From Malikia granosa (GTDB lineage Bacteria; Pseudomonadota; Gammaproteobacteria; Burkholderiales; Burkholderiaceae_C): 34,217 bases of DNA. The stretch lies in contig NZ_PVLQ01000042.1 of NCBI RefSeq assembly GCF_002980595.1, forward strand, positions 1-34,217. The letters run 5' to 3'. Below the pieces are notes generated by a model. The model did not search any database, had not been told where the DNA came from, and saw only the letters and a list, made by a program, of their open reading frames with translations. Every line of letters starts with the position of its first letter. Within the stretch, counting starts at the first letter, position 1. Below, one piece after another: positions 1 through 14,067 of the stretch. The translations under genes and the position numbers were made by a program.

Positions 1-270
1 ATTAATACAACAAAGCCGCGCACCCTGTCCACCGGCCAGCACGCCGTCGACCCAGGGCCAGTACAGCGGCAGGTAGTCGCGCTTGGCCTCGACCTTGCGC
101 TCGATGGACTGGATGGCCTTGAGCGCGCGGCGGTGCTCGTAGAGCTGGGCCTGCATCAGCTCGTAGGCGCTGGTCTGCGCCGGATCGAGCGCGTTGGCGC
201 CCGAGTCGTCGGCGGACAGGCTGGCTGCGGTCATGGCCAGCATGTGGGCGCGGGCGGGGGTCATGGCCAT
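1..270 (-). CDS. gpM: Small terminase subunit GpM (P2 type), partial
   Basis: Endonuclease (small) subunit of the P2-type terminase that cuts cos DNA for packaging. Reading leftward from 270, the product starts MAMTPARAHML and contains YELMQAQLYEHRRALKAIQ, IERKVEAKRDYLPLYWPWV and DGVLAGGQGA. These match the known GpM pattern of an N-terminal ARAH segment, a central helix and a WVDGVL block. An internal ATG at 264 is an alternative start. It begins 2 bases after the gpN stop, in the usual P2 order O-N-M. The frame runs off the window. The last few codons (positions about 1-20) no longer resemble GpM, where family members continue with an acidic AQDD block; this may be a contig-end artefact or a junction. 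Confidence 0.85.
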   Translation of the reverse strand, partial: MAMTPARAHMLAMTAASLSADDSGANALDPAQTSAYELMQAQLYEHRRALKAIQSIERKVEAKRDYLPLYWPWVDGVLAGGQGARLCCIN

Positions 271-272
271 GG

Positions 273-1280
273 TCAGACCTGCGCGATGTTGGTGATCACG
301 CAGCCGCGGCCGTAGTCCTCGACCACATAGGCGTCGTTGCTGGACTCGTAGTTCTCGACCCGGTCGCGCTTGGCGTTGTCGACCACGGTGCGGCGGCGCG
401 CGCCGTCCTGGTAGTAGATCGACAGGTTGTCGAGGGTGGTCACCATGATCGTGTTGTTCGGGATGAACGGCACGCGCACCGCCTGCAGACCGCCGACGCG
501 TTTCTGGCTGATGACCAGGTCGGCCGCCATCTGCTCGCTCGGGGCCAGGTTGGCGTTGTTGACCAGGGGGAAATACTTGTCGGCCAGCAGGTCACGGCTC
601 AGGAGGCAGACCAGCGCGGTGTCTTCGCGGTACCAGGGGTCGACCAGGTTGTTGACGGTGTCGTAGACCAGGGCGTCCAGGGTCTTGTAGTCGCCCGTCG
701 CGCCGACCTTGACCTGGCCAGCGGTGGCGCCGCCGGTCAGCACGCGAGCCGGGCTGTTGGTCTTGTACTGCTGGATCCAGCCGATGTTGACGTCTTGCAG
801 CAGCGGGTTGGTGGCCTTGTTGGTGGCCGCCGCCGCCGAGGTGCCGTTGAAGCCGATCATGATGCGGTCGAGGGCCATGCGGCGCACGATCAGGTCGCGG
901 ATGCGGGTCTGGAAGTCGGGGAACTTGGCCCAGGCATCCAGCTTGCTGTAGCTGATGTGGGTGTCGTAGTTGGTCTGCTTGCAGGTGTAGCCGATGCCGT
1001 CGAGCGAGGTGGGGTCGCTGGTGGCGCGGTCGGAGGCGTCGGTGTTGGTGCGGCTGGCGATCGGGCCGCCGATGCCGAGACCGAGCTTTTCGCCCTGCTG
1101 CTCGGTCACGCCGACCAGGTTGATGCGCTGCAGGAAGTCGCTGGACTCCTGGATGCGGCTCTCGAGTTTCTGCTGGATCGAGGGGCTGACCGCGAACTTG
1201 GCGGAAGCGGACGGCACGCCGTTGAGGCTGGCCAGGGTCTGCATGAAGGCGTTGAACGCCGAGCGGGTTTCGTTGCGCAT
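273..1280 (-). CDS. gpN: Major capsid protein GpN (P2 family)
   Basis: Major head protein of P2-like phages, 335 aa (P2 GpN is about 357 aa). The N-terminus MRNETRSAFNAFMQTLASLN and the central RRMALDRIMIGFNGTSAA segment are typical of the Phage_cap_P2 family. The remaining conserved blocks (LSRDLLADKYFPLVN, AVRVPFIPNNTIMVTTLDNL and a YVVEDYG near the C-terminus) are also present. The start at 1280 has AGGA about 8 bases upstream. It lies between the scaffold gene gpO and gpM, transcribed leftward from the shared late promoter region. No truncation is seen. Confidence 0.95.
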   Translation of the reverse strand: MRNETRSAFNAFMQTLASLNGVPSASAKFAVSPSIQQKLESRIQESSDFLQRINLVGVTEQQGEKLGLGIGGPIASRTNTDASDRATSDPTSLDGIGYTCKQTNYDTHISYSKLDAWAKFPDFQTRIRDLIVRRMALDRIMIGFNGTSAAAATNKATNPLLQDVNIGWIQQYKTNSPARVLTGGATAGQVKVGATGDYKTLDALVYDTVNNLVDPWYREDTALVCLLSRDLLADKYFPLVNNANLAPSEQMAADLVISQKRVGGLQAVRVPFIPNNTIMVTTLDNLSIYYQDGARRRTVVDNAKRDRVENYESSNDAYVVEDYGRGCVITNIAQV

Positions 1281-1316
1281 GAGGGGCTTCCTGTGAGGGG
1301 TGAAAGGCTGCCTGGA

Positions 1317-2147
1317 TCAGCAGTCGGTCTTGATCTGGGTGCCGGTGCCAGTGGCCGGCGGGCGGGTACCGCTGTACTGCGGGTCCTGGGTGCCGGCGAG
1401 CTTGGCCTGCAGCGCGTTGAAGTCGGCCTGCAGCTTGTCGTGCTCGGTCTTGAGCGCGGCGAACTGGCTGCTGGGCACCAGACCCTTGATCTGGTCGGTG
1501 ACGGCGGCGGCGATGTTGCCCAGCGCTTCGGCGACCTGGGCGAAGCGGGCGTCGTCGCTGCTGGCCTTGCCAGTGAACTGGCTGACGATGCCCTTGAGCT
1601 TGTCGCCGAAGGCCTTGACCAGGCCGGCGCTGTCGTCGGCCTTGTCCTCGAGCTCGATCTGGGTTTCGATCGCCGCGGTGAACAGTGCGCCTGGCGAGGA
1701 CTTGCGGCTCTGGAACGGGCTGGCGTCGGGCTTCTGGGCCGCGAAGGTCAGTACCTCGGTGCCCAGGCTGGCCGGGCTGTCGGTGACGGCCAGACCGGTC
1801 AGGTAGGCCTCGCCGGTGTCGGCGAATTTCGGGTTGACCTCGATCGAGGTGTAGATCTTCTGGCCCCGCTTGATCAGGTCGACCAGCTCGGGCAGGGGCT
1901 GGATCTGCGCGAACAGACCGAGCTTGCCATCCTCGACTTCGCGCGCTTCCACGGACAGCACGTCGCCGTAGGCGCGGAAGGTGCTGTCGGGGCCAATGCC
2001 GCGCAGGTGCTCGAGCCAGATGCGGGCGCCGTACTTCTGCGGGTTGAAGTTCTTGGCCATCTGGGTGATCCACTCGCGGCTGATGGCGCGGCCGTCGGTG
2101 GTCGCGCCTTCGGTGGCGACGCGGAAAATCTTGCTCTTGGTGGACAT
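1317..2147 (-). CDS. gpO: Capsid scaffolding protease GpO (P2 family)
   Basis: Head scaffold with a self-cleaving serine protease domain, 276 aa (P2 GpO 284 aa). The start MSTKSKIFRVATEGATTDGR at 2147 is the conserved family start; the frame stays open upstream but without homology. The P2 protease triad Asp19-His48-Ser107 corresponds by position and context to D18 (TTDGR), H47 (WLEHLRG) and S101 (KIYTSIEVNP). Residues beyond about 190 form the helical scaffold: ELEDKADDS, then a coiled stretch LKTEHDKLQADFNALQAKL. It is divergent from gpP and upstream of gpN, as in P2. Confidence 0.93.
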   Translation of the reverse strand: MSTKSKIFRVATEGATTDGRAISREWITQMAKNFNPQKYGARIWLEHLRGIGPDSTFRAYGDVLSVEAREVEDGKLGLFAQIQPLPELVDLIKRGQKIYTSIEVNPKFADTGEAYLTGLAVTDSPASLGTEVLTFAAQKPDASPFQSRKSSPGALFTAAIETQIELEDKADDSAGLVKAFGDKLKGIVSQFTGKASSDDARFAQVAEALGNIAAAVTDQIKGLVPSSQFAALKTEHDKLQADFNALQAKLAGTQDPQYSGTRPPATGTGTQIKTDC

Positions 2148-2215
2148 GGGGCTGGGCTGCAGAAGTTGAGTTCCAGCCATGGTGCCCAGGCTTCTCGCGC
2201 GGCTCAACGTCCGGC

Positions 2216-2240
2216 ATTTGTAGGGGCGATCGGTACAAAT
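2216..2240. promoter_or_regulatory. Dyad in divergent gpO/gpP late promoter region (Ogr/Delta-type site candidate)
   Basis: Perfect 7-bp inverted repeat ATTTGTA ... TACAAAT lies in the 192-bp gap between the gpO and gpP starts. P2 late promoters are activated by Ogr/Delta zinc-finger proteins at TGT-N12-ACA elements, and one such element serves the divergent P and O promoters. Here the arms are TGT-N13-ACA, one base longer than the consensus. The centre lies about 80 bases from the gpO start and 110 from the chosen gpP start. Placement fits; the activator gene is not in the window. Confidence 0.5.
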
Positions 2241-2339
2241 GACCGTGGTTTCGCGCGCGCGCGGCACCGGGGAACATCGGTTCCCATGTCAGACCACGAC
2301 GACGATTCGCCCCCCTTCGATACCGAGGAGGCCCCCGCC

Positions 2340-4091
2340 ATGGCCCAGCAGGCCGACAGCCGGCGGCGCGCGCGCGACCTCTACTGGCAGGGCTGGCGTC
2401 TGACGGACATCGGCGAGCTGCTGAAGATCCCGCGCACCACGCTGCACGGCTGGAAGGAGGCCGAGCAGTGGGACAAGGCGGCTCCGATCCAGCGCGTCGA
2501 GGGCGCGCTCGAGTCGCGCCTGGTGCAGCTGATCGCCAAGGATGCCAAGACCGGCACCGACTTCAAGGAAATCGACCTGCTGGGCCGCCAGGTCGAGCGA
2601 CTGGCCCGGGTGCGCAACTACGAGCAGACCGGCAAGGAGAAGGAGCTCAACCCCAACATCGAGCGCCGCAACGCCGGCCCCAAGCGCAGCCGGCGCGAGG
2701 ACAAGAACTTCTTCAGCGAGGACCAGGTCGAGCAGCTCGAGAGCGCCTTCCGCGATTCGCTGTTCGGCTACCAGCAGCGCTGGTGGCGCGAGAGCCAGCA
2801 GCGCACCCGCATGATCCTGAAGTCGCGCCAGATCGGCGCGACCTGGTACTTCGCCCGCGAGGCGCTGATCGACGCGATCACCACCGGGCGCAACCAAATC
2901 TTTTTGTCGGCCAGCAAGGCGCAGGCGCACATCTTCAAGCAGTACATCATCGGCTTCGCGCACGAGGCCTGCGGCGTCGAGCTGTCGGGCGATCCGATCG
3001 TGCTGGCCAACGGGGCGCACCTCTATTTCCTGGGCACCAACGCGCGCACCGCGCAGGGCTACCACGGCAACTTCTACTTCGACGAGTTCTTCTGGACCCA
3101 CGCGTTCGAGGTGCTCAACAAGGTCGCGTCGGGCATGGCCATGCACAAGCAGTGGCGCAAGACCTACTTCAGCACGCCCAGCAGCATCCAGCACGAGGCC
3201 CACTCGCTCTGGTCCGGCGAGCGCTTCAACAAGAAGCGGCCCAAGGCCGAGCGTGCGCAGTTCGACCTGACGCACGACCGGCTGGCCGATGGCCATGTGG
3301 CCGAGGACCGGATCTGGCGCAACATCGTCACGATCTACGACGCCGAGCGCGGCGGCTGCGACCTGTTCGACCTGGACGAGCTCAAGCTCGAATACAACCC
3401 CGAGGAGTTCGCGAACCTGCTGATGTGCGAGTTCATCGACGACTCGCACTCCATCTTCCCACTGGCCGAGCTGCAGAAGTGCATGGTCGACAGCTGGGAC
3501 GCCTGGGACGACGTCAAGCCGTTCAGCCAGCGGCCCTACGGCTTCCTGCCGGTCTGGGTCGGTTACGACCCCAGCCACACGGGCGACTCGGCCGGCCTGG
3601 TGGTGTTGGCCCCGCCGCTGGGCGACAAGGGCGCGTTCCGGGTGCTGGAGCGGCACCAGTTCAAGGGCATGGACTTCGAGGGCCAGGCCGAGGCCATTCG
3701 CAAGGTGACGCAGCGCTACAACGTGGCCTACATCGGCATCGACACCACCGGCATCGGCCAGGGCGTGTACCAGCTGGTGACCAAGTTCTTCCCGACGGCC
3801 AGGGGCATCAACTACAGCCTGGACAGCAAGACGCAGCTGGTGCTCAAGGCGCGCTCGGTCATCGGCAAGGCCCGGCTGCAGTTCGACAGCAGCTGGGTCG
3901 ACCTGGCGCACTCATTCCTGGCGATCAAGAAGACCCTGACCGCCAGCGGCAACGCCGTCACCTTCAGCGCCGGGCGCAGCGCCGAGACCGGCCACGCCGA
4001 CCTGGCCTGGGCCTGCATGAACGCGCTGGTCAACGAGCCCCTCGAGGGCCAGACCAGCAGCAACCAATCCTTCATCGAGATCTACGACTGA
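2340..4091 (+). CDS. gpP: Terminase large (ATPase) subunit GpP
   Basis: ATP-driven DNA packaging motor of P2-like phages, 583 aa (P2 GpP 590 aa). An N-terminal helix-turn-helix (RRARDLYWQGWRLTDIGELL) is followed by the ATPase: Walker-A-like KSRQIGAT at about 161-168 and Walker B NFYFDEFFW with D248/E249. The RNase H-like nuclease begins at WVGYDPSHTGD with D410. The ATG at 2340 is preferred because AGGAGG ends 8 bases upstream and the product then starts like P2 GpP. An in-frame ATG at 2286 would add an acidic 18-residue extension with a poor ribosome site. It is followed by gpQ after one base. Confidence 0.93.
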   Translation: MAQQADSRRRARDLYWQGWRLTDIGELLKIPRTTLHGWKEAEQWDKAAPIQRVEGALESRLVQLIAKDAKTGTDFKEIDLLGRQVERLARVRNYEQTGKEKELNPNIERRNAGPKRSRREDKNFFSEDQVEQLESAFRDSLFGYQQRWWRESQQRTRMILKSRQIGATWYFAREALIDAITTGRNQIFLSASKAQAHIFKQYIIGFAHEACGVELSGDPIVLANGAHLYFLGTNARTAQGYHGNFYFDEFFWTHAFEVLNKVASGMAMHKQWRKTYFSTPSSIQHEAHSLWSGERFNKKRPKAERAQFDLTHDRLADGHVAEDRIWRNIVTIYDAERGGCDLFDLDELKLEYNPEEFANLLMCEFIDDSHSIFPLAELQKCMVDSWDAWDDVKPFSQRPYGFLPVWVGYDPSHTGDSAGLVVLAPPLGDKGAFRVLERHQFKGMDFEGQAEAIRKVTQRYNVAYIGIDTTGIGQGVYQLVTKFFPTARGINYSLDSKTQLVLKARSVIGKARLQFDSSWVDLAHSFLAIKKTLTASGNAVTFSAGRSAETGHADLAWACMNALVNEPLEGQTSSNQSFIEIYD

Positions 4092-4092
4092 C

Positions 4093-5139
4093 ATGACCAC
4101 CCCTACCGAAACACCCGCCGATGGGCCCGAGACCCTGCTGCCCATGGCGCCGCCTGCCACCCAGGGCGCGGCCTTCACCTTCGGCGACCCGGTGCCCGTG
4201 CTCGACGGGCGCGACATCCTCGACTACCTGGAGTGCTGGACCAACGGCCGCTGGTACGAGCCGCCGGTCGACCCCAGCGGCCTGGCCAAGACCTTCCGGG
4301 CCAGCACCCACCACGCCAGCGCGCTCTACTTCAAGCGCAACCTGCTGGCCAGCCGCTTCGTGCCGCACCGCTGGCTGAACCGCGAGACGTTTTCCGCCTG
4401 GGCGCTGGACTACCTGGTGTTCGGCAATGCCTACCTGGAGCGCCCGCGCAACCTGCTGGGCGGCGCCATGCAGCTGCGCCACGCGCTGGCCAAGTACGTG
4501 CGCCGCGGCGGCGATGCGCTCGAGCGCTACTGGTTCGTCCAGAGCACGCAGGAGCACGAGTTCACGCCCGGCAGCCTGCACCACCTGCGCGAGCACGACA
4601 TCAACCAGGAGGTCTACGGCCTGCCCGAGTACCTGGCCGCGCTGCAGTCGGCCTGGCTCAACGAGTCGGCCACGCTGTTCCGCCGGCGCTACTACAACAA
4701 CGGCAGCCACGCGGGCTTCATCCTGTACATCAGCGACGCGCAACAGCAGCAGGCTGACGTGGACAACATCCGCGAAGCGCTCAAGAACAGCAAGGGCCCG
4801 GGCAACTTCCGCAACCTGTTCCTCTACAGCCCTGGCGGCAAGAAGGACGGCGTGCAGGTGATCCCGGTGTCCGAGGTGGCCGCGCGCGACGAGTTCATCG
4901 GCATCAAGAACGTCAGCCGCGACGACGTGCTGGCCGCACACCGCATCCCGCCGCAGCTGATGGGCATCGTGCCGCAGAACAGCGGCGGCTTCGGCAGCAT
5001 CACCGAGGCGGCCAAGATCTTCCATGCCAGCGAGATCGAGCCGCTGCAGCAGCGCCTGGCCATGATCAACGACTGGCTGGGCGAGGAAGTCGTGACCTTC
5101 CTGCCCTATGTGACCGAAGCGCCGGCTGCCGGCGCCTGA
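4093..5139 (+). CDS. gpQ: Portal protein GpQ (P2 / PBSX family)
   Basis: Portal vertex protein through which DNA enters the head, 348 aa (P2 GpQ 344 aa). Recognisable blocks are VLDGRDILDYLECW near residue 36, the LDYLVFGNAYLERPRN segment, YGLPEYLAALQSAWLNESAT, RRRYYNNGSHAGFILY, and the C-terminal PQLMGIVPQNSGGFGS. The gene starts one base after the gpP stop, so translation is probably coupled. It ends 3 bases before the convergent early operon, unlike P2, where gpQ lies next to cos and the left end. Confidence 0.94.
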   Translation: MTTPTETPADGPETLLPMAPPATQGAAFTFGDPVPVLDGRDILDYLECWTNGRWYEPPVDPSGLAKTFRASTHHASALYFKRNLLASRFVPHRWLNRETFSAWALDYLVFGNAYLERPRNLLGGAMQLRHALAKYVRRGGDALERYWFVQSTQEHEFTPGSLHHLREHDINQEVYGLPEYLAALQSAWLNESATLFRRRYYNNGSHAGFILYISDAQQQQADVDNIREALKNSKGPGNFRNLFLYSPGGKKDGVQVIPVSEVAARDEFIGIKNVSRDDVLAAHRIPPQLMGIVPQNSGGFGSITEAAKIFHASEIEPLQQRLAMINDWLGEEVVTFLPYVTEAPAAGA

Positions 5140-5142
5140 AGC

Positions 5143-5349
5143 TCAGGACAAGGGCTTGCCCCGCCTGGCCCGGTCGAGCTGGTCGCAGGCGTTGTGCAGG
5201 CCGTCGCGCATGGGTTCGATCAGGGTCAGGACCGAGGTGGTCGAGATCCGCTCGCCGTTGGCGGCCCGCAGCAGGTCGTACAGCGCGTCGGTGATAAAGG
5301 AGGCGCGCTGCACCTGGTCGGCGATCAGGCGTTGGTCGGCCGGCGTCAT
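5143..5349 (-). CDS. Small phage protein, unknown function
   Basis: A 68-aa product starting MTPADQRLIADQVQRASF, with predicted helical segments and a basic end (DRARRGKPLS). Its ATG overlaps the stop of the preceding membrane protein gene by 4 bases, so it is the last gene of the leftward early operon. Its own stop lies 3 bases from the convergent gpQ stop. No motif points to a function. The tight packing and coupling argue that it is a real gene. Confidence 0.6.
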   Translation of the reverse strand: MTPADQRLIADQVQRASFITDALYDLLRAANGERISTTSVLTLIEPMRDGLHNACDQLDRARRGKPLS

Positions 5350-6689
5350 GCGGCACCCCCGATCAGGGCCATCTGGCGCGGATCGACCGGCGCCCCGCGC
5401 AAGGCGTAGCCCCGGCCCTGGCGCTCGATCACGCCGTCGCGCTCCATCTGCTGCAGGTAGCCGCGCACGGTGACGGTGCCGCCGCCTTCCGAGCGCTGGA
5501 TCGCGCGCACGCTGGGCGTGAGCCGGCCGGCGCGCACGCTGGCGACGATGCGCCGGTAGCGGTGACCATCCAGCTCGCCGACACCCGAGTCGCGCTTGCT
5601 GCCGACTTCGACCGTGACGCGCTTGCGCGGCGCGGTCTGGCGCTTGGAGCGTGACGCGGTCGTCACAGTCGCTGGTGCCTCCACCGTCGCGTCTTGCTCC
5701 GGTGGGCGTTGCGACGGCGCCGTCACAGTCGCGTTGGCCGCGCCCTGGGCGGCTGTCGTCACGGGTGCCGAGACCGTCACGGTCGGGGCGGCAAAGGCGG
5801 CGGCAGGGATGGCCGCCAGCGGCACGCCGGCGGACAGCCAGCGGCGCGTGGTCGACGGCAGGGCGGTGGGCAAGCCTGCCGGAGCGGCCTGGATACCGTG
5901 AGCGTAGCCGGTGCGGGGCTTGGCCGCAGCCATCGCCGGCGCCGTCGCGCTGCCCAGCGGGGTCATGACCGATCCAGCCGCCGTCACCGAACGGCCCGCG
6001 CGCAGCAGGGCGCCCGCTGCGGCGAACATCACCAGGCCCATGCCGACGATCAGCACGCCGCGCGCGACCGAGTACCAGACCATGCCGTCCTGGCCCAGGA
6101 TGGTGGTAAGGGTGGGGCGCTGGCCAGCCTGCAGCCGAGACAGCTCGGCCGACAGCTCGGCGTTGCGCTGCTCGATGCGCGCGGCCTCGCGCAGGGCCTG
6201 GGCGCCGTGGGCGCGGCTGCTGGCGTACTGGCTCTCGCCGCTGCGGGCACCGGTGGCCACCAGGGCGGCAGCGGCCTGGCGGTTCTGCGCGATCGAGGCC
6301 TCGAGGTGAGCGATGCGGCTGCTCGCGCCCTGGTGCACCGCATCGGCGCTTTTCACCAGCGTGACCTGGACGGCGTAGAGCGTGGCGACCTCGAAGGCCA
6401 CCAGCGCGACGCCGGTCCAGATCAGGCGGGTGCGCAGGGCCTTGAGGCGCTCGCGCGGCAGCAGGGCGGCCATGCCAAAGGCGGCCAGCTCGACCACGAT
6501 CATCAGCACGCCGGCGGCAATCAGCGCCTCGCGCGCCAGGCTGTCGCTCTCGGTGCGCTCCAGGCCCAGGACGAAGAACTGCGCGGTGACGGCGCTGCAG
6601 GCCAGCCCGATGACGGCGGCGGCCAGGGCCAGCAGGCGGTAGGCCCAGCGGGGCAGGTGGGTGTCTTGCTCGGTGTGGCGGTGGGTCAT
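5346..6689 (-). CDS. Multi-pass membrane protein with C-terminal winged-helix-like domain, unknown
   Basis: A 447-aa protein not recognised as a known family. Visible layout: three hydrophobic segments at about 15-45, 52-78 and 87-112, a helical coiled-coil-like stretch about 115-185, a fourth segment about 200-225, then a low-complexity Ala/Thr/Val linker. A C-terminal module about 375-435 (GHRYRRIVASVRAGRLTPS and TVTVRGYLQQMERDGVIERQ) reads like a winged helix. The ATG at 6689 has GGGAG 6 bases upstream; an ATG at 6695 sits directly on that SD. It follows the replication-like gene by 14 bases and overlaps the 68-aa gene. A membrane-tethered DNA-binding role is inference only. Confidence 0.65.
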   Translation of the reverse strand: MTHRHTEQDTHLPRWAYRLLALAAAVIGLACSAVTAQFFVLGLERTESDSLAREALIAAGVLMIVVELAAFGMAALLPRERLKALRTRLIWTGVALVAFEVATLYAVQVTLVKSADAVHQGASSRIAHLEASIAQNRQAAAALVATGARSGESQYASSRAHGAQALREAARIEQRNAELSAELSRLQAGQRPTLTTILGQDGMVWYSVARGVLIVGMGLVMFAAAGALLRAGRSVTAAGSVMTPLGSATAPAMAAAKPRTGYAHGIQAAPAGLPTALPSTTRRWLSAGVPLAAIPAAAFAAPTVTVSAPVTTAAQGAANATVTAPSQRPPEQDATVEAPATVTTASRSKRQTAPRKRVTVEVGSKRDSGVGELDGHRYRRIVASVRAGRLTPSVRAIQRSEGGGTVTVRGYLQQMERDGVIERQGRGYALRGAPVDPRQMALIGGAA

Positions 6690-6703
6690 GGTCATCTCCC
6701 GGA

Positions 6704-7870
6704 TCAGGCGGCCACGGTGGCCAGGGTGGCAAGGTGGGCGGAACGCTGCGCCTTGAGGTCGGCCAGCGACAGCCCCAGGGCGGCCGCGGCGTTGACGATG
6801 GTGGCGCGCGAGACGGCCTCGCCGGCGACGAAGCGGTCGGCGGCCTTGCGGGCCCAGCCGGTGCCAATGCTGCCGCCGACAGCGGTCGGGGCCTGGCTGC
6901 GCAGCGTCACAGTCTGCAGCGCGGCTACCGGACGTGCCGGGCGAGCCGGGGCGGTGATCGGCCCGGCGGACTGGGGCAGCACCAGACCCGCCTCGTAGCG
7001 GGCCCGCAGCGCCATGGCTGCACGGCCGGCGTCGCTCAGCTCGACCGGGCCGGCCGGGGCGACAGCGGGTGTCGTCAGGCTGGCGGCGCTGGCGAAGTCG
7101 GCGCGGAAGAAGTTGCGGCCCGGGCGGGCCAGGATCCACTCGGCGGCGGCCTGGGGCGCGATGCCGGCCAGGGTGGCCTCGCGGCCCAGGTCGAGCAGCT
7201 CGGCGCGCTTGAACGCCGCCTTGCCGTTGGCCACGCGCTGGGCGTTGACGGCGGCCAGGGTGTCGGGGGCAATGGCGACGGCGCGATCGACGGCCGGGGC
7301 CTTGGTCGTCAGCACCTGGGCGTCAGCGGTGGCGGCCAGCGCCGGGGATTCGGCTTGGGGTTGTTCAGAAACAGGGAGGGAGGGGGCGGCTTGTACCGGC
7401 GCCGGTTCGGCGCGCGTCCCAGTACCTTCCTCAGTACAGACCAGTACCCCTTCAGTACGGGGGACATGGGTGTCCGGGGTGGATGGCTCGAATGTCCGGG
7501 GTAGGGCGTCCAGATGTCCGGGGTCGATGTCGCCCATGTCCGGGGTGGCGGCGACGGATGGGCGGCAGTTGCGGGCCTGGGCCAGCGCGACCAGGTCGAT
7601 CACGTAGCTGGTCGAGCGTCCGGCGCGCGGCAGGCGGGCGATCAGGCCGAGCGCGACCAGGGCCTCGATGTTGCGGCCGGCCTGCTTCTCGCTCACGCCC
7701 GACAGGGCGGCGATGGTCTTGAGCGAGCAGGTGCTGCGGCGGGTGCGGTCGTCGTGGCAACGGGCGATGGCGATCAGGGCCAGCTTGGGGCCGGCCGGCA
7801 GCCGGACGTCGGCCGAGGCGACCAGGGCGCGCAGGCTCTCACGCTGGAGTCCGGTGTTGAGCGCTTTCAT
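6704..7870 (-). CDS. Winged-helix phage replication initiator candidate
   Basis: A 388-aa protein. Residues about 20-95 form a helix-turn-helix/winged-helix domain of the phage replication-protein type (KLALIAIARC, CSLKTIAALSGVSEKQAGRN, IEALVALGLIARLPRAGRST). A long Ala/Pro-rich linker follows, then a C-terminal domain with RAELLDLGREATLAGIAPQA and PGRNFFRADF. The gene contains two DNA repeat arrays (7420-7458, 7471-7546), as lambda-type O genes contain the origin. It overlaps the upstream 78-aa gene by 4 bases. The initiator role rests on the fold plus repeats and is inferred; a transcription factor is the main alternative. Confidence 0.6.
   Translation of the reverse strand: MKALNTGLQRESLRALVASADVRLPAGPKLALIAIARCHDDRTRRSTCSLKTIAALSGVSEKQAGRNIEALVALGLIARLPRAGRSTSYVIDLVALAQARNCRPSVAATPDMGDIDPGHLDALPRTFEPSTPDTHVPRTEGVLVCTEEGTGTRAEPAPVQAAPSLPVSEQPQAESPALAATADAQVLTTKAPAVDRAVAIAPDTLAAVNAQRVANGKAAFKRAELLDLGREATLAGIAPQAAAEWILARPGRNFFRADFASAASLTTPAVAPAGPVELSDAGRAAMALRARYEAGLVLPQSAGPITAPARPARPVAALQTVTLRSQAPTAVGGSIGTGWARKAADRFVAGEAVSRATIVNAAAALGLSLADLKAQRSAHLATLATVAA
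7420..7458. repeat. Four CAGTAC repeats inside the initiator gene
   Basis: CAGTAC occurs at 7420-7425, 7432-7437, 7442-7447 and 7453-7458, with spacings of 12, 10 and 11 bases, about one helical turn. The copies are read in different codon phases by the gene, so protein repetition does not explain them. They lie directly beside the 22-bp-period array. Confidence 0.7.
7471..7546. repeat. Four iterons with exact 22-bp period (putative replication origin)
   Basis: The 10-mer TGTCCGGGGT occurs at 7471-7480, 7493-7502, 7515-7524 and 7537-7546. Every spacing is exactly 22 bases, about two helical turns. Since 22 is not a multiple of 3, the copies encode different peptides (TPDT, PRTF, DPGH, TPDM), so the conserved unit is DNA. 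This is the usual design of replication-initiator iterons. Confidence 0.8.
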
Positions 7871-8103
7871 GTGGCACCGCCTTCTTGCGCGGTGCGGATC
7901 GCCTGCTTGAGCAGGGACGAGGCGCGGATGGCCTTGGCCAGGGCGCGTTCCAGGCGCTTGACGCCGACTTCGGGCGTGGACAGCTCGGTGCGCGCGGCGG
8001 TCAGCGCGCTGAAGGCCAGCGTGTGCAGGACCGGGACGGACTGGGGGACAGGCGAAGCGGAGGCGCGAACGGGCGCGCGCAGGGTGCGGATGATTTCAGC
8101 CAT
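7867..8103 (-). CDS. Small phage early protein, unknown function
   Basis: A 78-aa product, MAEIIRTLRAPVRASASPVP at the N-terminus and a basic helical C-terminus (GVKRLERALAKAIRASSLLK). The start has AGGAG 6 bases upstream, a good ribosome site. It is the first gene of the leftward early operon and overlaps the initiator gene by 4 bases (ATGA). No known domain was recognised. Confidence 0.6.
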   Translation of the reverse strand: MAEIIRTLRAPVRASASPVPQSVPVLHTLAFSALTAARTELSTPEVGVKRLERALAKAIRASSLLKQAIRTAQEGGAT

Positions 8104-8170
8104 GAATGGCTCCTACGGAACAGATCTCAGGACCTGCCGCCCTCGACGCCAATCAAGGGGAGGCAGGCGC

Positions 8171-8229
8171 GTGTGGGTTGGCGTACCGGCCGTAGGTCCG
8201 GCGAACCCCCTCGCGGGAGTTCCCCACAC
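8171..8229 (-). ncRNA. Candidate C4 / P4-CI-type phage antisense RNA
   Basis: On the minus strand this segment folds into a three-way junction. A perfect 7-bp closing stem joins 8223-8229 and 8171-8177 (GUGUGGG/CCCACAC). Inside is an 8-bp hairpin GAACUCCC-GCGA-GGGGGUUC with a GNRA loop, then a second hairpin of CCGG/CCGG plus CC/GG with one bulged A. This resembles, from memory, the C4 antisense RNA of P1/P7 and CI RNA of P4, which sit in the leader of early operons and pair with nearby leader sequences. Here UUGGCGU/ACGCCAA complementarity links this RNA (8178-8184) to sites at 8146-8152 and 8366-8372. Family assignment needs a covariance search. Confidence 0.55.
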
Positions 8230-8244
8230 GGCCCGCCAATCGTC

Positions 8245-8394
8245 GGAGCAGGGGGCTGCTCCGTCCGCAAGGGGAATCCGTGTTGCCACCCGCAGCGGTG
8301 GACATGAGAAAAAGCCGCTGACACCCTGGGGCGGCGCGCGGCTTGCTGCGCCTACGGAAACCGGGACGCCAATCCCGTGCACCCTTTAGGGTGC
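8245..8394 (-). other. Structured leader of the early operon
   Basis: No convincing gene was found in the roughly 340-base stretch 8104-8442; it is dense in hairpins instead. There is GGAGCA/TGCTCC (8245-8262), CGGGA/TCCCG (8362-8377) and GCACCC-TTTA-GGGTGC (8379-8394). CGCCAATC recurs at 8147-8154, 8234-8241 and 8367-8374. Together with the C4-like fold this looks like a regulated phage leader. Short minus-strand ORFs pass through it, but coding there is not supported. Confidence 0.4.
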
Positions 8395-8412
8395 GTCGCA
8401 GAGTGTAACACG

Positions 8413-8431
8413 TAGTCTCACAATGAGACTA
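8413..8431. promoter_or_regulatory. Perfect dyad upstream of DUF1640 gene
   Basis: TAGTCTCA-CAA-TGAGACTA is a perfect 8-bp inverted repeat ending 11 bases before the downstream start codon. A TAGAAT at 8430-8435 overlapping it could be a -10 element, making it a possible operator. No clear -35 or SD is seen. Confidence 0.5.
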
Positions 8432-8442
8432 GAATCATCTGC

Positions 8443-8718
8443 ATGACAACCTTGACATTCGACACCTTGAAGTACGCTGAACGGCTGAAGTCAGCTGGCG
8501 TGTCTGAGGCGCAGGCCAAGGCCGAAGCCGAAGCCTTGCGTGATGTGTTGTCCGAGGCGCTGGACACCACCTTGGCTACCCGTGCCGATGTGCAGTCCAT
8601 CAAGGTTGAGCTTGAGCGCATGGAGTCGAAATTCGAGGCGAAGTTCGACAAGCTGTCCTGGATGCTCGGCATCCTGATCGCGTTGGCGGCGGCCAACTTC
8701 GGCAAGCAGTTCTTCTGA
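8443..8718 (+). CDS. DUF1640 coiled-coil protein with C-terminal membrane helix
   Basis: A 91-aa protein of the DUF1640/CCDC90-like type. The N-terminal FDTLKYAERLKSAGVSEAQA block is characteristic; a coiled coil follows (SIKVELERMESKFEAKFDKL), then one membrane helix near 70-86 (SWMLGILIALAAANFG). Such small proteins recur in proteobacterial prophages and near mobile elements, with no established role. It has its own dyad-containing upstream region and runs opposite to the early operon. GC content drops sharply right after its stop. Confidence 0.8.
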   Translation: MTTLTFDTLKYAERLKSAGVSEAQAKAEAEALRDVLSEALDTTLATRADVQSIKVELERMESKFEAKFDKLSWMLGILIALAAANFGKQFF

Positions 8719-8761
8719 GTAATTCACGCCTTATATTTTTAAAAGCCAAGACATAGTTTTT

Positions 8762-9727
8762 ATGAAGTACGACGTTTACCGCTACTCTGGGCAAATAAGC
8801 GTTTATGGATATCACGCAATTTGTGATGAGATCAAAAAAAGGAAAGAGGGCGAAGATGCTACGGCGCTTCTTATGATCTCAACTCCAGGCGGAGATCCTG
8901 ATGCGGGATTTCGTATCGCTCGTGCGCTTCAGCATGCGTATCCTGAAAATGGGTTTCATGCCTTGATATCTAATGAATGCAAAAGTGCAGGTACCCTAGT
9001 TGTGGTTGGGGCCAAAAAAATCTACATGGCAGATCGTAGTGAGCTTGGTCCGCTAGATATTCAGATAAAGAAAGGTGATGAGTTATTTGGTCGAAACTCA
9101 GGTCTTGATATTAATCAAGCGGTAGATTTTTTGAAAGATGAGGCATTGACGACTTTTAATTCTTATATGAATAAATTGGTGCGTCAGGGCTTATCTACGA
9201 AAGTTGCAGCAGACATGGCTGTAAAACTGGTTTCTGGACTTTTTCAGCCAATTGCAGCTCAGATTGAGCCATTACGGTTGGCGGAAATGCAGCGTGCCAC
9301 AAATATTACGTACGCATATGGAAGAAGGCTCTCTACTACCAGTGCAAATGTTAAGCCAAGAGGTGTGGAGACGTTGATAGGTGGGTATCCATCACATAGT
9401 TTTGTTATAGATAGAAAAGAGGCGCGAACCTTATTTAAGGTGGTGGATAAGCCTGATTTGGGTTTATTGAAGTTTTGCGATAGCTTTGATCAAGATTTTT
9501 TAAAGTATATAAATGACCCAATTGCTAAAATCGACTCATTCAGCATTGAAGGATATGAAAATGGAGCAGAATACCGAGTTCTTCGAACCGCTGAAGAGGT
9601 TGCAGGAGAAAGTCAGTCAAAGCTCAATGGCACTGGCGGGCAGACTCGCAGAAGTAAAACAAAAAAACAGCTTCACTCATCAGTGGCCGGTGCAGACGCC
9701 GTTGCATCAAATAAATCATCGATATGA
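8762..9727 (+). CDS. SDH-type (ClpP-fold) serine protease, prophage cargo
   Basis: A 321-aa protein of the serine dehydrogenase proteinase family (ClpP/SppA fold). Visible motifs are the oxyanion-loop MISTPGGDPDAGFRIARAL (about 38-56), the nucleophile in NECKSAGTLV with S75, and SELGPLDIQ at about 93-101, matching the family's conserved ELGPLD segment. No signal peptide, so probably cytosolic or membrane-associated. The gene is visibly AT-rich with A/T third positions, unlike the phage genes beside it, which suggests recent acquisition as a moron. Its last 55 or so codons overlap a second ORF. No strong SD is seen upstream. Confidence 0.8.
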   Translation: MKYDVYRYSGQISVYGYHAICDEIKKRKEGEDATALLMISTPGGDPDAGFRIARALQHAYPENGFHALISNECKSAGTLVVVGAKKIYMADRSELGPLDIQIKKGDELFGRNSGLDINQAVDFLKDEALTTFNSYMNKLVRQGLSTKVAADMAVKLVSGLFQPIAAQIEPLRLAEMQRATNITYAYGRRLSTTSANVKPRGVETLIGGYPSHSFVIDRKEARTLFKVVDKPDLGLLKFCDSFDQDFLKYINDPIAKIDSFSIEGYENGAEYRVLRTAEEVAGESQSKLNGTGGQTRRSKTKKQLHSSVAGADAVASNKSSI

Positions 9728-9767
9728 CATTGATGTCTCTGAGCTTGATGATTCATATCGCTATTGA
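9561..9767 (+). CDS. Small ORF overlapping the 3' end of the protease gene
   Basis: A 68-aa ORF in another frame, starting MEQNTEFFEPLKRLQEKVSQ and ending DIDVSELDDSYRY. The ATG at 9561 has GAAGGA 7 bases upstream, a better ribosome site than the protease's own. It overlaps the protease by 167 bases and runs 40 bases past its stop, ending just before a strong terminator. The composition looks protein-like (amphipathic start, acidic/aromatic end), whereas the overlapping protease tail is Ser/Thr/Lys-rich and less ordered. It could be a coupled partner gene, or mark a frameshifted protease tail. Confidence 0.45.
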   Translation: MEQNTEFFEPLKRLQEKVSQSSMALAGRLAEVKQKNSFTHQWPVQTPLHQINHRYDIDVSELDDSYRY

Positions 9768-9799
9768 ATAATTTATCTCTGAGTTTTATGCTTAAATAG

Positions 9800-9840
9800 A
9801 CAGCGTTGGCGCAGTTTTGTGCCAACGCTGTTTTCTTTTT
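9800..9840 (+). terminator. Strong rho-independent terminator
   Basis: The stem ACAGCGTTGGC / GCCAACGCTGT is perfect over 11 bp and extends inward (GCA with TGT) around a short loop, followed by TTTTCTTTTT. It ends the protease unit and separates it from the leftward rha gene. Confidence 0.92.
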
Positions 9841-9871
9841 GCGGATTATTTTCTGAATCTATTCGTGCCTA

Positions 9872-10693
9872 TTAATTCCGGTAAGGCTCGGCCAGTTCAC
9901 CGTTTTTATCCAATATGCCAGCGCGCTGCAAAAAGGAGATCGACTCTTCTTTGCTGGCTGAAATCTTCTTGACATAAGCGTCAATCTCTGCGATCTCCTT
10001 GTCAATCTTGCTCAAGGCCGGTTTGCATGAAATGGACGTGTGCTCGCGCTCGACGTCCACCACTGGCTGCTGCACACCCAGGACCTCCATCGAGTCGGTT
10101 GGAATGCCCAGTGCGTCGTTGACCTGGCGCAGCTGCCAGTACAGGTTGCGTCTTGCCTCTGGCCGTGACTCGTTGAGCAGGTCGTTCATCGCACGGCGGC
10201 CTTGCTCCTGCAGCGTCAGCTTGAAGCGCAGCGGAATCCCTTTCCTGAACTGCTTGTCGCTGGCATCAAGCAGGGGCTCGACGTAGAGCGCACGCAGCTT
10301 GGCCTCCATCGCGTTGAAGGCGTCGATGTAGGCCAGCTTGAACGCCAGTGCTCGGTCGCCCGTGAAGCCCATCCCTAGCAGCGTGAAGCCGTCGCGGGTG
10401 ATGCGGTAGACCGGCTCCTGACGGACGGCGCCGTTGGGTCCGGGGACCTCGAATAACGTCTCCGCAAAATTGCGGGCACGTTCGGCGGGCAACTGTGCAA
10501 GCAAGTTCCGGATGGCACGCAGCACATCGTCATGCCGCTTATCGAAGTGGCGGGCGATGTCCAGGCTGGTGGTGGTGGCTTGGCCATCGACGACGGTCAG
10601 CAAGGGAGAGGCGGCCTCGACCTGCTGGAAGGCATCGGCGCGCTCTTCGAGGGTCTTGCGCATCGAGTTCAGGGCATTGACGGGGGTGGACAT
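9872..10693 (-). CDS. rha: Rha-family phage regulatory protein
   Basis: A 273-aa protein with an N-terminal pRha domain (about residues 30-125): VVDGQATTTSLDIARHFDK, RHDDVLRAIRNLLAQ, YRITRDGFTLLGMGFTGDRA and LAFKLAYIDAFNAMEAKLRA are the conserved family blocks. The C-terminal half (LTLQEQGRRAMNDLLNESRP onward) is a separate helical region. Rha proteins interfere with phage growth or act as regulators/antirepressors in lambdoid and P2-like prophages. The ATG at 10693 is chosen where homology begins; upstream reading is GC-rich and non-homologous. Confidence 0.85.
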   Translation of the reverse strand: MSTPVNALNSMRKTLEERADAFQQVEAASPLLTVVDGQATTTSLDIARHFDKRHDDVLRAIRNLLAQLPAERARNFAETLFEVPGPNGAVRQEPVYRITRDGFTLLGMGFTGDRALAFKLAYIDAFNAMEAKLRALYVEPLLDASDKQFRKGIPLRFKLTLQEQGRRAMNDLLNESRPEARRNLYWQLRQVNDALGIPTDSMEVLGVQQPVVDVEREHTSISCKPALSKIDKEIAEIDAYVKKISASKEESISFLQRAGILDKNGELAEPYRN

Positions 10694-10996
10694 GGCGTTT
10701 CCAGGCAGAAGGTGGCTGTATGGCGCAGGATGAACACCATTGTGCTCCAGCGCGCAGTCGAGACCCCGCCGCGCCCCCGCGCTAAATCGGCCTCGAGTGT
10801 CGGCCTGGTCGGCCCCCCGGCTTCCCTGCGGGGGAGGGGGCTTTCCGGGGCCCTGGCGGCGTCGGGATTCGACGGGATTCGTCGGCCTGTGCGCTGGTCT
10901 GCCGAGGAGCCATGCCCGGCCAGACATACCCCCACCCCCGTTTCGGCCGTTTTCAGGCCGTTTTTCCCAGCTTTTCCGGGAAGGGTTCGGGAAAAA

Positions 10997-11271
10997 CCTA
11001 ACCAGGAAAAAAGCGCCCGAAAAACGCCGGCAAGTCCTTGATCTTCAACCGGAAATCTTGGTTAGAAAACACCCTAACCAGACCTAACCAAAACCCTTAC
11101 AAAGCCGCAAGTGCTTGATTTTTATAGGTGGTGTTCTTGACCTTGGTTAGGTTCTCATCTTCTAACCAAGTTAGGTTTTGGTTAGGAAATTGTTAGACTT
11201 TATAGGTTACTGTAAGTGCTTGTTCTGTATGGATTTTCAAGCCTTTTTCAGTATCAGTAATGCCGGTTAGG
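10997..11271. repeat. Cluster of CCTAACCA sites in both orientations
   Basis: In the 717-base gene-free stretch 10694-11410, CCTAACCA or its complement TGGTTAGG occurs exactly at 10997-11004, 11073-11080, 11083-11090, 11144-11151 and 11179-11186. One-mismatch copies lie at 11059-11066, 11161-11168 and 11264-11271, and a weaker copy near 11168-11175. This dense bidirectional array resembles an origin/crr or a multi-site regulator region. The rest of the stretch (10694-10996) is GC-rich with no recognised feature. Confidence 0.8.
11030..11229. repeat. Three longer direct repeats interleaved with CCTAACCA sites
   Basis: Related sequences start at 11030 (GCAAGTCCTTGATCTTCA), 11107 (GCAAGTGCTTGATTTTTA) and 11212 (GTAAGTGCTTGTTCTGTA). 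They share a core AAGTGCTTG-like unit in the same orientation. TTATAGGT also recurs near 11121 and 11200. They add a second repeat class to the same region. Confidence 0.6.
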
Positions 11272-11410
11272 TTTTTCCCGACCCCTCCCTGGGATTTTGG
11301 AATCGGCCTGTTTTCGGCTGTTTTGCCTGAAAAGTGTGCAAGTTTCAGGGGGGTTGCGTCTGAAAACACTGGGGGGAGTATTGGTTTCCAGGCAGGCCAG
11401 AGCAGCGCGG

Positions 11411-12586
11411 TCACTTGGCCGGCTTGGCGCAGGCATCCAGCCAGTCGGCCCAGTCCTGCAGCATCTGGCGCCGCTGCTTGAGGTAGCGGGCCCGGTTGTA
11501 GGCGCTGCGGGTCTTGTTTTCTTCGCTGTGCGCGAGTTGGAACTCGATGTGGTCGGGCTCGTAGCCGGCCTCGTTGGCCCAGGTCGAGGCGACCGATCGG
11601 AATCCGTGCCCGGTCATGCGGCCCTTGAAGCCGATGCGGTAGAGCAGGTAGAGAATGGCGTTCTCCGAGATCGGTGTGTCCTTGCGGCTCTCGCCCCGGA
11701 ACACGTAGTCGCTGCCGCGCGCGCGCTGCTTCATGACCTGGAGCAGCTCAAGCGCCTGGCGGCTCAGCGGGATCACATGGTCGCGCGACCGCTTCATCTT
11801 GCCGGCCGGAATGCGCCAGATGTCGCCCTCGATCTCGTGCCAGCGCATCTGGCGCAGCTCGGTGGTGCGCACCCAGGTGTAGGCGAGCATGCGCAGAGCC
11901 AGCACGCTCTGCTGCTGCGGGCTCTCGAAGGCCAGTCGGTCGAACAGCTGCGGCATCTCGCTGGGCTCAAGTGCGGCGAAGTGCTCGACCTTGGCGGTGG
12001 CGAAGGCCTTCTTGGGGTCGATCTCGGCAGCCGGGTTGTGCTCGCAGTGTCCGTTGGCGCGGGCCCACTCGAAGACCGCGTCGGCCCACAGGCGGATCTT
12101 GCGCACGTAGACATGCTTGCCGGCGTCGTCCACCTTGCGCAGTTCGGCCAGCAGGTCGTTGCGGGTGATGCCGTCGATCGGCCGCTGGCCCAGGGCGGGC
12201 ACCAGGTAGGCGTCGAGCGCCCGCGTGGCGTTGTCGATGTACTTGGGCGTGCAGTCCTTGCGGCCAGCCCAGTAGAGCTCGGCGCACTTCGAGAAGGTCG
12301 GCGTCGATGGGTTTGGTGTATCGGACGCTGTCATGGGGTTGATGCCGTCGCGCAGCTGCCGCTTGGCCTCGTCGCGCTTGGCCCGGGCCTCGGCCAGGCT
12401 GACCTTCGGGTAGGGGCCCCATGAGATGGTCTGCTGCTTGCCTTCCCAGCGGAAGGATTGCCGCCAGAGCTTGGAGCCGAGAGGCGTGATCCAGAGATAG
12501 AGGCCTTCGCCGTCGAACTTCTTGTAGTTCTTGTCACCGGGCTTGAAGCCGCGGCACTGTGAGTCGGTCAGGGTGTTGGTAGCCAT
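11411..12586 (-). CDS. int: Tyrosine integrase, P4-type with DUF4102 arm-binding domain
   Basis: A 391-aa site-specific recombinase. An N-terminal DUF4102 domain (KKFDGEGLYLWITPLGSKLW, GPYPKVSLAEARAKRDEAKR) is followed by a core-binding domain and the catalytic domain. Catalytic residues are visible: R240 (TWVRTTELRQMRW), K263/K265 (GKMKRSRDHVIPLS), H327 and R330 (GHGFRSVAS), H353 (QLAHSEENK) and the nucleophile Y363 (AYNR). The protein looks complete and active. The start lies about 200 bases from the tRNA-Ser-like att site, the normal arrangement for P4-type integrases. Confidence 0.96.
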   Translation of the reverse strand: MATNTLTDSQCRGFKPGDKNYKKFDGEGLYLWITPLGSKLWRQSFRWEGKQQTISWGPYPKVSLAEARAKRDEAKRQLRDGINPMTASDTPNPSTPTFSKCAELYWAGRKDCTPKYIDNATRALDAYLVPALGQRPIDGITRNDLLAELRKVDDAGKHVYVRKIRLWADAVFEWARANGHCEHNPAAEIDPKKAFATAKVEHFAALEPSEMPQLFDRLAFESPQQQSVLALRMLAYTWVRTTELRQMRWHEIEGDIWRIPAGKMKRSRDHVIPLSRQALELLQVMKQRARGSDYVFRGESRKDTPISENAILYLLYRIGFKGRMTGHGFRSVASTWANEAGYEPDHIEFQLAHSEENKTRSAYNRARYLKQRRQMLQDWADWLDACAKPAK

Positions 12587-12600
12587 GCTGGCAGGTCAGG

Positions 12601-12651
12601 TGTAGGTATTTCAGGGCAGCTGCTTTAGAAATACCTACATTTCTACCTACA
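12601..12651. promoter_or_regulatory. Inverted and direct repeats upstream of int
   Basis: TGTAGGTATTTC (12601-12612) and GAAATACCTACA (12628-12639) form a perfect 12-bp inverted repeat. A third copy TTTCTACCTACA follows at once (12640-12651). They begin 15 bases before the int start, so they may be an int operator, Xis/integrase arm sites, or both. Confidence 0.6.
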
Positions 12652-12708
12652 GACTGCCCGTGGTGAACGGTGTGATCATGTGGGGTTCGTTGGGCTTTAG
12701 GCAACAAA

Positions 12709-12752
12709 AAACCCCACTAAGTGCCTGATTTTCATCAGTTTTAGTGGGGTTT
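12709..12752. terminator. Long hairpin between int promoter and att site
   Basis: AAACCCCACTAA / TTAGTGGGGTTT is a perfect 12-bp inverted repeat enclosing a second hairpin CTGAT-TTTC-ATCAG. Runs of A on the left and T on the right suit a bidirectional intrinsic terminator, shielding the prophage end from the host side. Confidence 0.65.
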
Positions 12753-12785
12753 GGTGCGGTAAGGTGGCTTACCGTTTGCTATTCA

Positions 12786-12808
12786 TGGCGGAGAGGGCGG
12801 GATTCGAA
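12786..12808. other. Attachment site: 3' end of tRNA-Ser (prophage right boundary)
   Basis: This 23-base segment, read on the minus strand, is the 3' end of a tRNA-Ser: the TTCGAATCCC of the T-arm followed by an acceptor stem ending in TCTCCGCCA. Just upstream on that strand the T-arm context breaks (GGGTTTTCG instead of GGGTTCG), so only the fragment is present, as expected for an att duplicate at the integrase end. The intact tRNA should be at the other prophage end, outside the window. The remaining host side to 12980 is AT-rich with no recognised feature. Confidence 0.7.
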
Positions 12809-12980
12809 AACCCTTCCGATTTTTTATTATAAATCAATGACTTGATATTTTGCAAGGCTGGTGATGTGTAGTGCTCATGTGTAGAAAAACCGGCCGTCTG
12901 TTGCGGCTCACCTGAGCTCGAATCGCAGCCGGTCCGTTAGCGCTCTTCAGGCCGCGAAGCGCGCAGCCCCCCGGCTTGAA

Positions 12981-13478
12981 CTACTGGAACGCGAATTGCT
13001 TCAAGCGTTGTCCTTCTGCCCGAGCCTCCTCCAGCAGCTGGTTCCAGTCGTCCGGCGGATGGCCGCTCTCCAGCATCTTGCGGAACACTCGGTAGGCGTC
13101 GTCGTTGCTTTCGTAGGCACGCTTGGTGTCCTCGTCGTTGACCCACGCAAACACGATCACCTTGGCTTGTGCGTGGTAACGGAAGAACAGCCGGTATTGC
13201 TGGAAGAACTTGGCTCGGAACCAGTGCTTGTGATCGTCGCCCAGGGTGCCTCCTTGCCGGTACTCCGGCCGCGCCGGATCCTGCGGGATGACGTCGAACG
13301 CCAGCTTGGTGATAGCTGCCAGTCGCTTGCTGGCATTCTTCTTCACGTAGCCGAGCGGGTCCTTCTGTTTAAGGGCCTCGACTTGCTGTGCCAGCGCTTC
13401 AATCTGTGCGAGGAACAATGGATGGGCGAAGATCGTCCAGCCGTGAACGACCAAGGGCGCAGGCTTGCTGGTGCTCAT
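12981..13478 (-). CDS. yhaV: YhaV-type RNase toxin
   Basis: A 165-aa toxin of the YhaV family (E. coli YhaV 154 aa), RelE-superfamily ribonucleases acting on mRNA. Recognisable blocks: HGWTIFAHPLFLAQIEALAQ at the N-terminus, FDVIPQDPARPEYRQGGTLG in the middle, and HWFRAKFFQQYRLFFRYHAQ followed by VIVFAWVNDEDTKRAYES. The ATG overlaps the stop of the upstream prlF gene, the classical antitoxin-first order with coupled translation. It is the first host-side gene after the att site. Full length, no damage seen. Confidence 0.93.
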   Translation of the reverse strand: MSTSKPAPLVVHGWTIFAHPLFLAQIEALAQQVEALKQKDPLGYVKKNASKRLAAITKLAFDVIPQDPARPEYRQGGTLGDDHKHWFRAKFFQQYRLFFRYHAQAKVIVFAWVNDEDTKRAYESNDDAYRVFRKMLESGHPPDDWNQLLEEARAEGQRLKQFAFQ

Positions 13479-13804
13479 TCATCGTCTGCCGACAGTGTGG
13501 CATCGAAATCGGCTTCAATGTCGCCGACCAGAGACTGGAGTCGGTGGACAAGACTGGCATCCATGGCCTGCAAGTGCTCCGGATGGTTGGCGATATCGCG
13601 AGCCAAAAAGCCAAGGAAAAACCCCAGCACTGGATCGCCATCCTCTGTGACTTCAGCGCGGGTGAGCACCACCTCGCCGCTGGGATGTATGGTGTAGTGG
13701 ATTTTGTCGCGCTTGCCCAGCCGCAGAGCACGACGCACGGTCTCTGGCACGGTAGTCTGGTAGCGGTCGGTCAGCGTGGATTCGACTTCTAGGGTGGCAG
13801 GCAT
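13475..13804 (-). CDS. prlF: PrlF-type antitoxin (AbrB-fold)
   Basis: A 109-aa antitoxin (E. coli PrlF/SohA 111 aa) that neutralises YhaV and represses its own operon. The N-terminal swapped-hairpin AbrB-like motif ESTLTDRYQTTVPETVRRAL is clear, followed by LGKRDKIHYTIHPSGEVVLT and the family-typical DPVLGFFLGFLARDI. The ATG at 13804 has GGAG 6 bases upstream. Two AT-rich dyads lie directly upstream (13837-13881). Confidence 0.94.
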   Translation of the reverse strand: MPATLEVESTLTDRYQTTVPETVRRALRLGKRDKIHYTIHPSGEVVLTRAEVTEDGDPVLGFFLGFLARDIANHPEHLQAMDASLVHRLQSLVGDIEADFDATLSADDE

Positions 13805-13836
13805 GGCATTCTCCGGTGGAAGAGGAGGAAGGTCAT

Positions 13837-13881: not shown

Positions 13882-13925
13882 ATGAGACGGTTGTCGACTT
13901 GTCAGGCGTCATGAAATGTGACCGA

Positions 13926-14065: not shown

Positions 14066-14067
14066 GT

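Follow-up and report, generated by a model that had tools for sequence, protein, structure and literature searches.

A probable replication origin inside the O-like initiator gene of a Malikia granosa prophage

In the stretch of Malikia granosa DNA analysed here (34,217 bases, in the following the window), the gene of an O-like winged-helix initiator contains two adjoining arrays of short repeats: four iterons at a pitch of exactly 22 bp and, beside them, four GTACTG repeats about one helical turn apart, which coincide with the computationally least stable DNA of the gene. The locus is very probably a prophage replication origin that lies inside its own initiator gene, as in phage lambda (i.e. 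an O-type origin). As such, it provides a precise and testable candidate origin for a prophage family of Malikia and its relatives. The features discussed are collected in table 1.

Table 1. Features of the initiator locus and of the surrounding prophage in the window.
Feature	Position	Strand	Matches and remarks
O-like winged-helix replication initiator gene, 388 aa	6704..7870	-	HTH_36, PHROG 270/391, AlphaFold2 model
78-aa ORF, directly upstream of the initiator start, which it overlaps	7867..8103	-	relative in L028
Iteron array, four 22-bp units, each opening with ACCCCGGACA on the gene strand	7459..7546	-	
Iteron units	7525-7546, 7503-7524, 7481-7502, 7459-7480	-	
Second array, four GTACTG (CAGTAC on +), 10-12 bp pitch; proposed DNA-unwinding element	7420..7458	-	
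449-aa protein, four hydrophobic stretches, weakly GntR-like C-terminus (386-428); possible partner	5346..6695	-	8 bp after initiator
ClpP/NfeD-like protease gene, in prophage early region	8762-9727	+	PHROG 21683 E 2.1e-87
Rha-family regulator gene	9872..10927	-	PF09669 E 4e-26
Tyrosine integrase	11411..12586	-	PF13356, PF22022, PF00589
P2-type portal gene (Q)	4093..5139	+	PHROG 68 E 6.1e-157
Rest of P2-type head module	1..4091	M, N, O all -; P +	small terminase M (cut by contig end), capsid N, scaffold O; large terminase P

On the gene strand, the four copies of ACCCCGGACA start at gene nucleotides 324, 346, 368 and 390 (counted from 0), within codons 109-138, and fall in codon phases 0,1,2,0, so that all three reading frames are used. 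In the orientation of the window, TGTCCGGGGT occurs four times in the whole 34,217 bases, always on the + strand (7471, 7493, 7515 and 7537). Exact TGTCCGGGGT pairs spaced 22 were found in the own genome only at the initiator locus (3 forward, 0 reverse), and the control pattern, read backwards, gave 0 pairs at this spacing. Furthermore, Tandem Repeats Finder assigned to the array (7471-7548) the top score (82) of the 21 rows for the window, and the lag-22 self-similarity of the gene (29/44) was matched by 0/1000 synonymous-codon shuffles, which preserve both the protein and its codon usage.

The GTACTG repeats of the second array start at gene nucleotides 412, 423, 433 and 445 (again counted from 0), in codon phases 1,0,1,1, and correspond to CAGTAC at 7420, 7432, 7442 and 7453, with spacings of 12, 10 and 11; in the whole window CAGTAC has 13 copies on the + and 5 on the - strand. 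The preliminary description had placed both arrays in the same 388-aa gene, with these spacings and in mixed codon phases, and these statements hold. It had also taken CAGTAC as a second iteron array, a view that is not retained. Indeed, when 45-bp segments of the gene were ranked by computed stability, 7416-7460 (from gene nucleotide 410), directly beside the iterons, came out as the least stable of all 1122. In the five relatives measured (L042, L006, L043, L032 and L033), the corresponding stretch lies at instability percentiles of 0.993-0.999, and the AT-rich region of lambda, by the same measure, at 0.984. Because the CAGTAC array sits in the least stable part of the gene, it is best read as an unwinding element and not as a second set of iterons, most likely an element in which the repeats are set one helical turn apart.

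The repeats of this element vary among relatives, GTACTG being kept in L042 and L006 and replaced by TCTGG/TCTGAGG-type repeats in L043, L032 and L033. When IMG/VR was scanned for GTACTG in three phased copies, at least 120 stretches came up, with 80 loci kept, in 68 of which all spacings are multiples of three (i.e. coding repeats); inspection by eye of the other 12 revealed no winged-helix initiator. Thus, among the matches listed, the array is known here from the window gene, L042 and L006 only. A strict pattern, TGAACCRTCANTGAACCRTCA, was met at 2 loci only.

Residues 24-77 of the initiator match Pfam HTH_36 (E 2.3e-7, 31 bits with a cut-off of 25), and the protein weakly matches PHROG 270 ('replication initiation protein', E 3e-7) and PHROG 391 ('replication initiation O-like', E 1.4e-5), in agreement with its early assignment as an O-like winged-helix initiator; the tandem arrays are located in the linker that comes right after the winged helix. 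The AlphaFold2 model (mean pLDDT 63.6, pTM 0.29) is of low confidence outside the winged helix (residues ~9-102) and the C-terminal helical parts (confident helices at ~200-265 and ~338-388), and the low-confidence stretch in between (103-196) is predicted to be a disordered linker, encoded in part by the repeats. With this model, the top Foldseek matches are general winged-helix proteins (best E 2.6e-3, none below 1e-3), including MarR-type and SmtB-type regulators and TubR, and no sequence match to the initiator was found in the PDB. Elsewhere in the same genome, another weak match to PHROG 270 is present (G000:C137:4467-4691, E 1.1e-5).

These structural matches bring to mind functions other than replication. 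It is unlikely, however, that the repeats are operator sites serving the autoregulation of the initiator's own operon, with no role in replication: MarR- and SmtB-type proteins are regulators, the sites lie within the transcribed region and a GGACA..TGTCC-type unit recurs in other HTH_36 genes, but the sites are found ~325 bp inside the gene, away from its start, the adjoining DNA ranks as the least stable of the gene, or close to it, both in the window and in the five relatives measured, the PHROG matches are replication initiators, and no second replication initiator was found among the phage-region proteins scanned (part of the ORFs of the window). A partition or incompatibility (centromere-like) site, bound by the winged helix in the manner of TubR while something else takes care of replication, is still less probable. 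The unstable array adjoining the iterons and the family matches to replication initiators speak against it, and the phage-region proteins scanned include no recognisable partition NTPase; in its favour are TubR itself among the Foldseek matches, the fact that iterons can serve both replication and partition, and the adjacent membrane-protein-like gene, the product of which could tether DNA.

That the repeats are maintained as DNA emerges from the comparison with related genes. Relatives of the initiator were found in IMG/VR (L005, which is the same as L042, L006 and L043) and in bacterial genomes (three loci in one Malikia genome, rated as belonging to the same genus as the genome of the window, seven in Macromonas bipunctata and one in Giesbergeria). 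Relatives of the C-terminal part, as far as the pattern-limited scans go, are the Malikia, Macromonas and Giesbergeria loci and two IMG/VR contigs (L042 and L043), the part that L006 has in common with the window initiator being the N-terminal half only. The window gene was compared with six relatives, three of which come from the one Malikia genome, at synonymous third positions (same amino acid and same first two bases, mostly four-fold codons). Identity was 40/42 in the 11-base motif and 11/13 in the spacers, as compared with 35/69 elsewhere in the linker and ~0.7 in the folded parts (winged helix 181/256, C-terminal part 266/387); the second array, with 14/18, is weakly to moderately conserved base by base.

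A significant lag-22 array (reached by 5% or less of the synonymous shuffles, uncorrected) was present in 11/14 genes tested, window included, a set from which L011, L014 and the duplicates L015, L017 and L021 were left out and in which L022, with its two halves in different frames, counts among the eleven. The three genes with no significant array (L016, L023 and L010) are all distant, with 28-31% identity, but other distant copies (L009, L018 and L020) retain it. Thus, selection on the DNA, as initially proposed, is borne out, and the persistence of the repeats across homologues applies to most of the genes tested, with the exception of these three. Furthermore, in 4/5 Macromonas genes inspected the pitch of 22 is kept with a different unit sequence, L016 having no such array, and L043 contains four exact copies of ACCCCGGACAT, also at pitch 22. 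The idea that protein-level constraint, or tandem duplication in a loose linker, produced the repeats as a by-product has next to no probability, since, for all that the linker is predicted to be disordered and evolves fast outside the repeats and that small tandem duplications are common, the mixed frames, the failure of all 1000 shuffles to reach the signal and the synonymous-site counts rule out a purely protein-level origin, and relatives with other unit sequences keep the pitch. In L006, an inverted pair, ACCCCGGACA-CCCA-TGTCCGGGGT, is found just ahead of the iteron array (1753-1776).

In lambda O, the iterons lie between the DNA-binding and the C-terminal parts of the protein. The annotated iterons of lambda (J02459) start at 39034, 39054, 39078 and 39101, that is with a pitch of 20, 24 and 23 and from codon 117, as compared with 22 and codon 109 here, and in both cases an unstable region comes directly after them. 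The presence of four iterons inside the initiator gene at a pitch of ~22 bp, as in the lambda O-P replicon, supports the original parallel with lambda O. The likeness is not complete. According to PMC5043065, O dimers bind the iterons of lambda, which are inverted repeats, and the unwinding region of lambda is A+T-rich with almost all purines on one strand, whereas the unit here is mostly non-dyad, a dyad being visible by eye in the fourth copy only, and the second array consists of GTACTG repeats with ~40% A+T. In-gene iterons are also common to the O genes of the Shiga-type phages P27 and 933W, where, according to PMC7466680, they adjoin an AT-rich tract and are six in number, four of them strongly bound, as compared with four here.

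With the HTH_36 initiators of PHROG 270 and 391, the window gene shares the domain and the in-gene arrays, although its lineage has iteron and second-array sequences of its own. The iterons of RK2 are located outside the rep gene, unlike the array described here, which is inside the 388-aa gene, and a search of the initiator gave no Pfam hit to plasmid Rep family domains of the TrfA or RepE type. On the other hand, RK2 oriV resembles the window locus in having iterons beside repeated motifs in an unwinding element; PMC4081077 reports repeated motifs in the unwinding elements of iteron plasmids and lambda, and TrfA is described there as having two winged-helix domains and as binding one strand of the 13-mers.

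How far in-gene arrays extend among such initiators was evaluated by two routes. Scanned without regard to proteins for CCCCGGACA pairs at pitch 22, IMG/VR yielded 31 loci, including the prophage of the window itself and the L043 contig, which form only 17 groups by DNA similarity; taking one overlapping ORF per locus (31 of 47 candidates, picked by eye), 26/31 match HTH_36. In the bacterial family, 24 further PHROG 391 genes were scored, and 17/24 have a significant in-gene array (5% or less of the shuffles, at any lag of 16-29), with lag 18 or 22 in 12 of these 17, and 7/24 have none at any of these lags. The scoring, which used the longest open frame at the match, possibly the wrong one for some, covered 25 loci (the window's own included) of the 30 returned (L045-L074), L057 and L071-L074 being left out. 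Taken together, these counts suggest that iterons inside the gene, arranged as in lambda, are a common feature of HTH_36 initiators, the units changing while pitch and place tend to stay. A five-copy array with unit TCCCCGGACA..GTGACA, also at pitch 22, was seen in L089 (4582), where it adjoins a tail-like gene (by eye) and not a winged-helix gene.

Judging from this anatomy, the N-terminal winged helix of the initiator would bind the four iterons, all of which, being two helical turns apart, would be displayed on one side of the helix. Once assembled, the complex would bend the DNA and open the weak, phased GTACTG stretch beside the iterons; the host helicase would be brought in by the C-terminal domain, possibly helped by the adjacent membrane protein or by a loader from the host, and its arrival would lead to the start of theta replication. 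Helicase loading is the weakest point of the O-type origin reading because, unlike in lambda, no recognisable P gene for a helicase loader follows the initiator, and the 449-aa neighbour has no PHROG match and only below-cut-off matches in Pfam, GntR (E 0.022) being the first. This neighbour comes directly after the initiator in six other loci (L042, L043, L032, L033, L034 and L037) and was not found in L006 or in the five Macromonas loci searched.

A second array of another sequence, namely GAACCRTCA at a pitch of 10-12 bp, is present just after the iterons in many phage initiator genes. A count of 7-mers recurring at 9-13 bp in 51 non-redundant genes gave 219, as compared with a mean of 53.8 and a maximum of 76 in 60 shuffles, and the most recurrent 7-mers include AACCATC and AACCGTC, in four genes each. 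A scan of IMG/VR for two GAACCRTCA copies gave at least 120 stretches, of which 80 were kept; since the scrambled control also yielded 82 stretches, the count alone is a weak argument, and position is a stronger one. A tandem array within 220 nt upstream, by a criterion that 5% or less of the in-contig controls reach, was found for 57/74 evaluable loci among those kept, as compared with 19/75 for the scramble, and a strong array score was obtained in 54/74 cases upstream and in 4/77 downstream of GAACCRTCA. The ORFs at these sites match HTH_36 in 61/76 cases (four ORFs under 100 aa left out), and, with a median percentile of 0.944 over 72 genes, the GAACC stretch belongs to the less stable segments of the gene that carries it. 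Some of the matches (L171, L175 and L182) turned out to be plain simple repeats. GAACCRTCA-type repeats directly after iterons of varied sequence were seen in L160-L239, L046, L058, L060, L065 and L131.

In 49 GAACCRTCA genes, the C-terminal parts form 15 clusters (the largest of 20) and the iteron units 14 classes, which are rough, the units having been cut automatically, with 25 combinations between the two; counter to strict independence, 32/49 iteron units chain into one class and 45/49 winged helices into one cluster. The window initiator gene contains no copy of AACCNTC, and what would unite the GTACTG and GAACCRTCA arrays as one element is place and pitch only. It is a possibility, admittedly a somewhat doubtful one, that O-type in-gene origins have a second general element, independent of the iteron sequence, made of short repeats one helical turn apart right after the iterons (GAACCRTCA in many phages, GTACTG or TCTGG-type in the lineage of the window gene), which forms or marks the unwinding element. 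Since GAACCRTCA arrays occur together with iterons and C-terminal domains of different kinds, they might then be read by a factor that the phages share, e.g. a host replication protein. If general, the phased second array would offer a handle on how small initiators open a G+C-rich duplex and on the host protein met there, and it is the part worth following; no publication describing it was found among the best-ranked literature matches.

As to the prophage itself, the contig has a counterpart in IMG/VR, a provirus of 15,648 bases, with 100% identity over the checked window positions 1677-15648, and P2-type head genes follow each other in order at 1-5139. In a search with the portal, the twelve top-ranked rows are Burkholderia phages with 64-67% identity, KL3 (64%) being the first and having the head genes M, N, O, P and Q in the same order and on the same strands. 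In the own genome, rated 99.69% complete, no match was found to the P2 sheath and tube (PF04984, PF04985) or to gpL/head completion (PF05926), and the small terminase is seen only as a cut piece at the contig end, inside gene M. The prophage in this assembly is incomplete, and either its tail half was lost in assembling or it is an element with no P2 tail (tail-less, satellite-like). The P2-type structural module of the preliminary description is upheld for its head half, no sheath, tube or head-completion gene having been found in the assembly.

The same description had contrasted the initiator with the rolling-circle initiator GpA of P2. Indeed, the own genome has no match to GpA (PF05840; in the control, the model matched 2/14 genomes, E. 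coli among them), as anticipated, but the contrast loses part of its force with KL3, the best-ranked portal relative, among whose 52 annotated features none is given as GpA (annotation only) and in which the annotation has a CHC2 primase, close to the integrase, as the replication gene, unlike the gene described here. Relatives of the initiator, the 449-aa neighbour, Rha and the integrase, the four proteins to which this check was limited, other kinds of initiator not being detectable by it, were found beside 0/10 other P2-like portals, out of 22 such places listed in the bacterial family, within flanks of up to 10 kb (two of them shorter, 5.9 and 0.6 kb). In the window and in L042, the initiator and its 449-aa neighbour adjoin a P2-type portal, and two of the three Malikia loci have them close to lambda-J-like tail genes, so that the pair seems to move between phage types. 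In Macromonas bipunctata (G042), the seven loci with relatives of the initiator, three of which have a stop inside the match, lie in one genome of 2.7 Mb and can be read as several related prophages or remnants in one cell.
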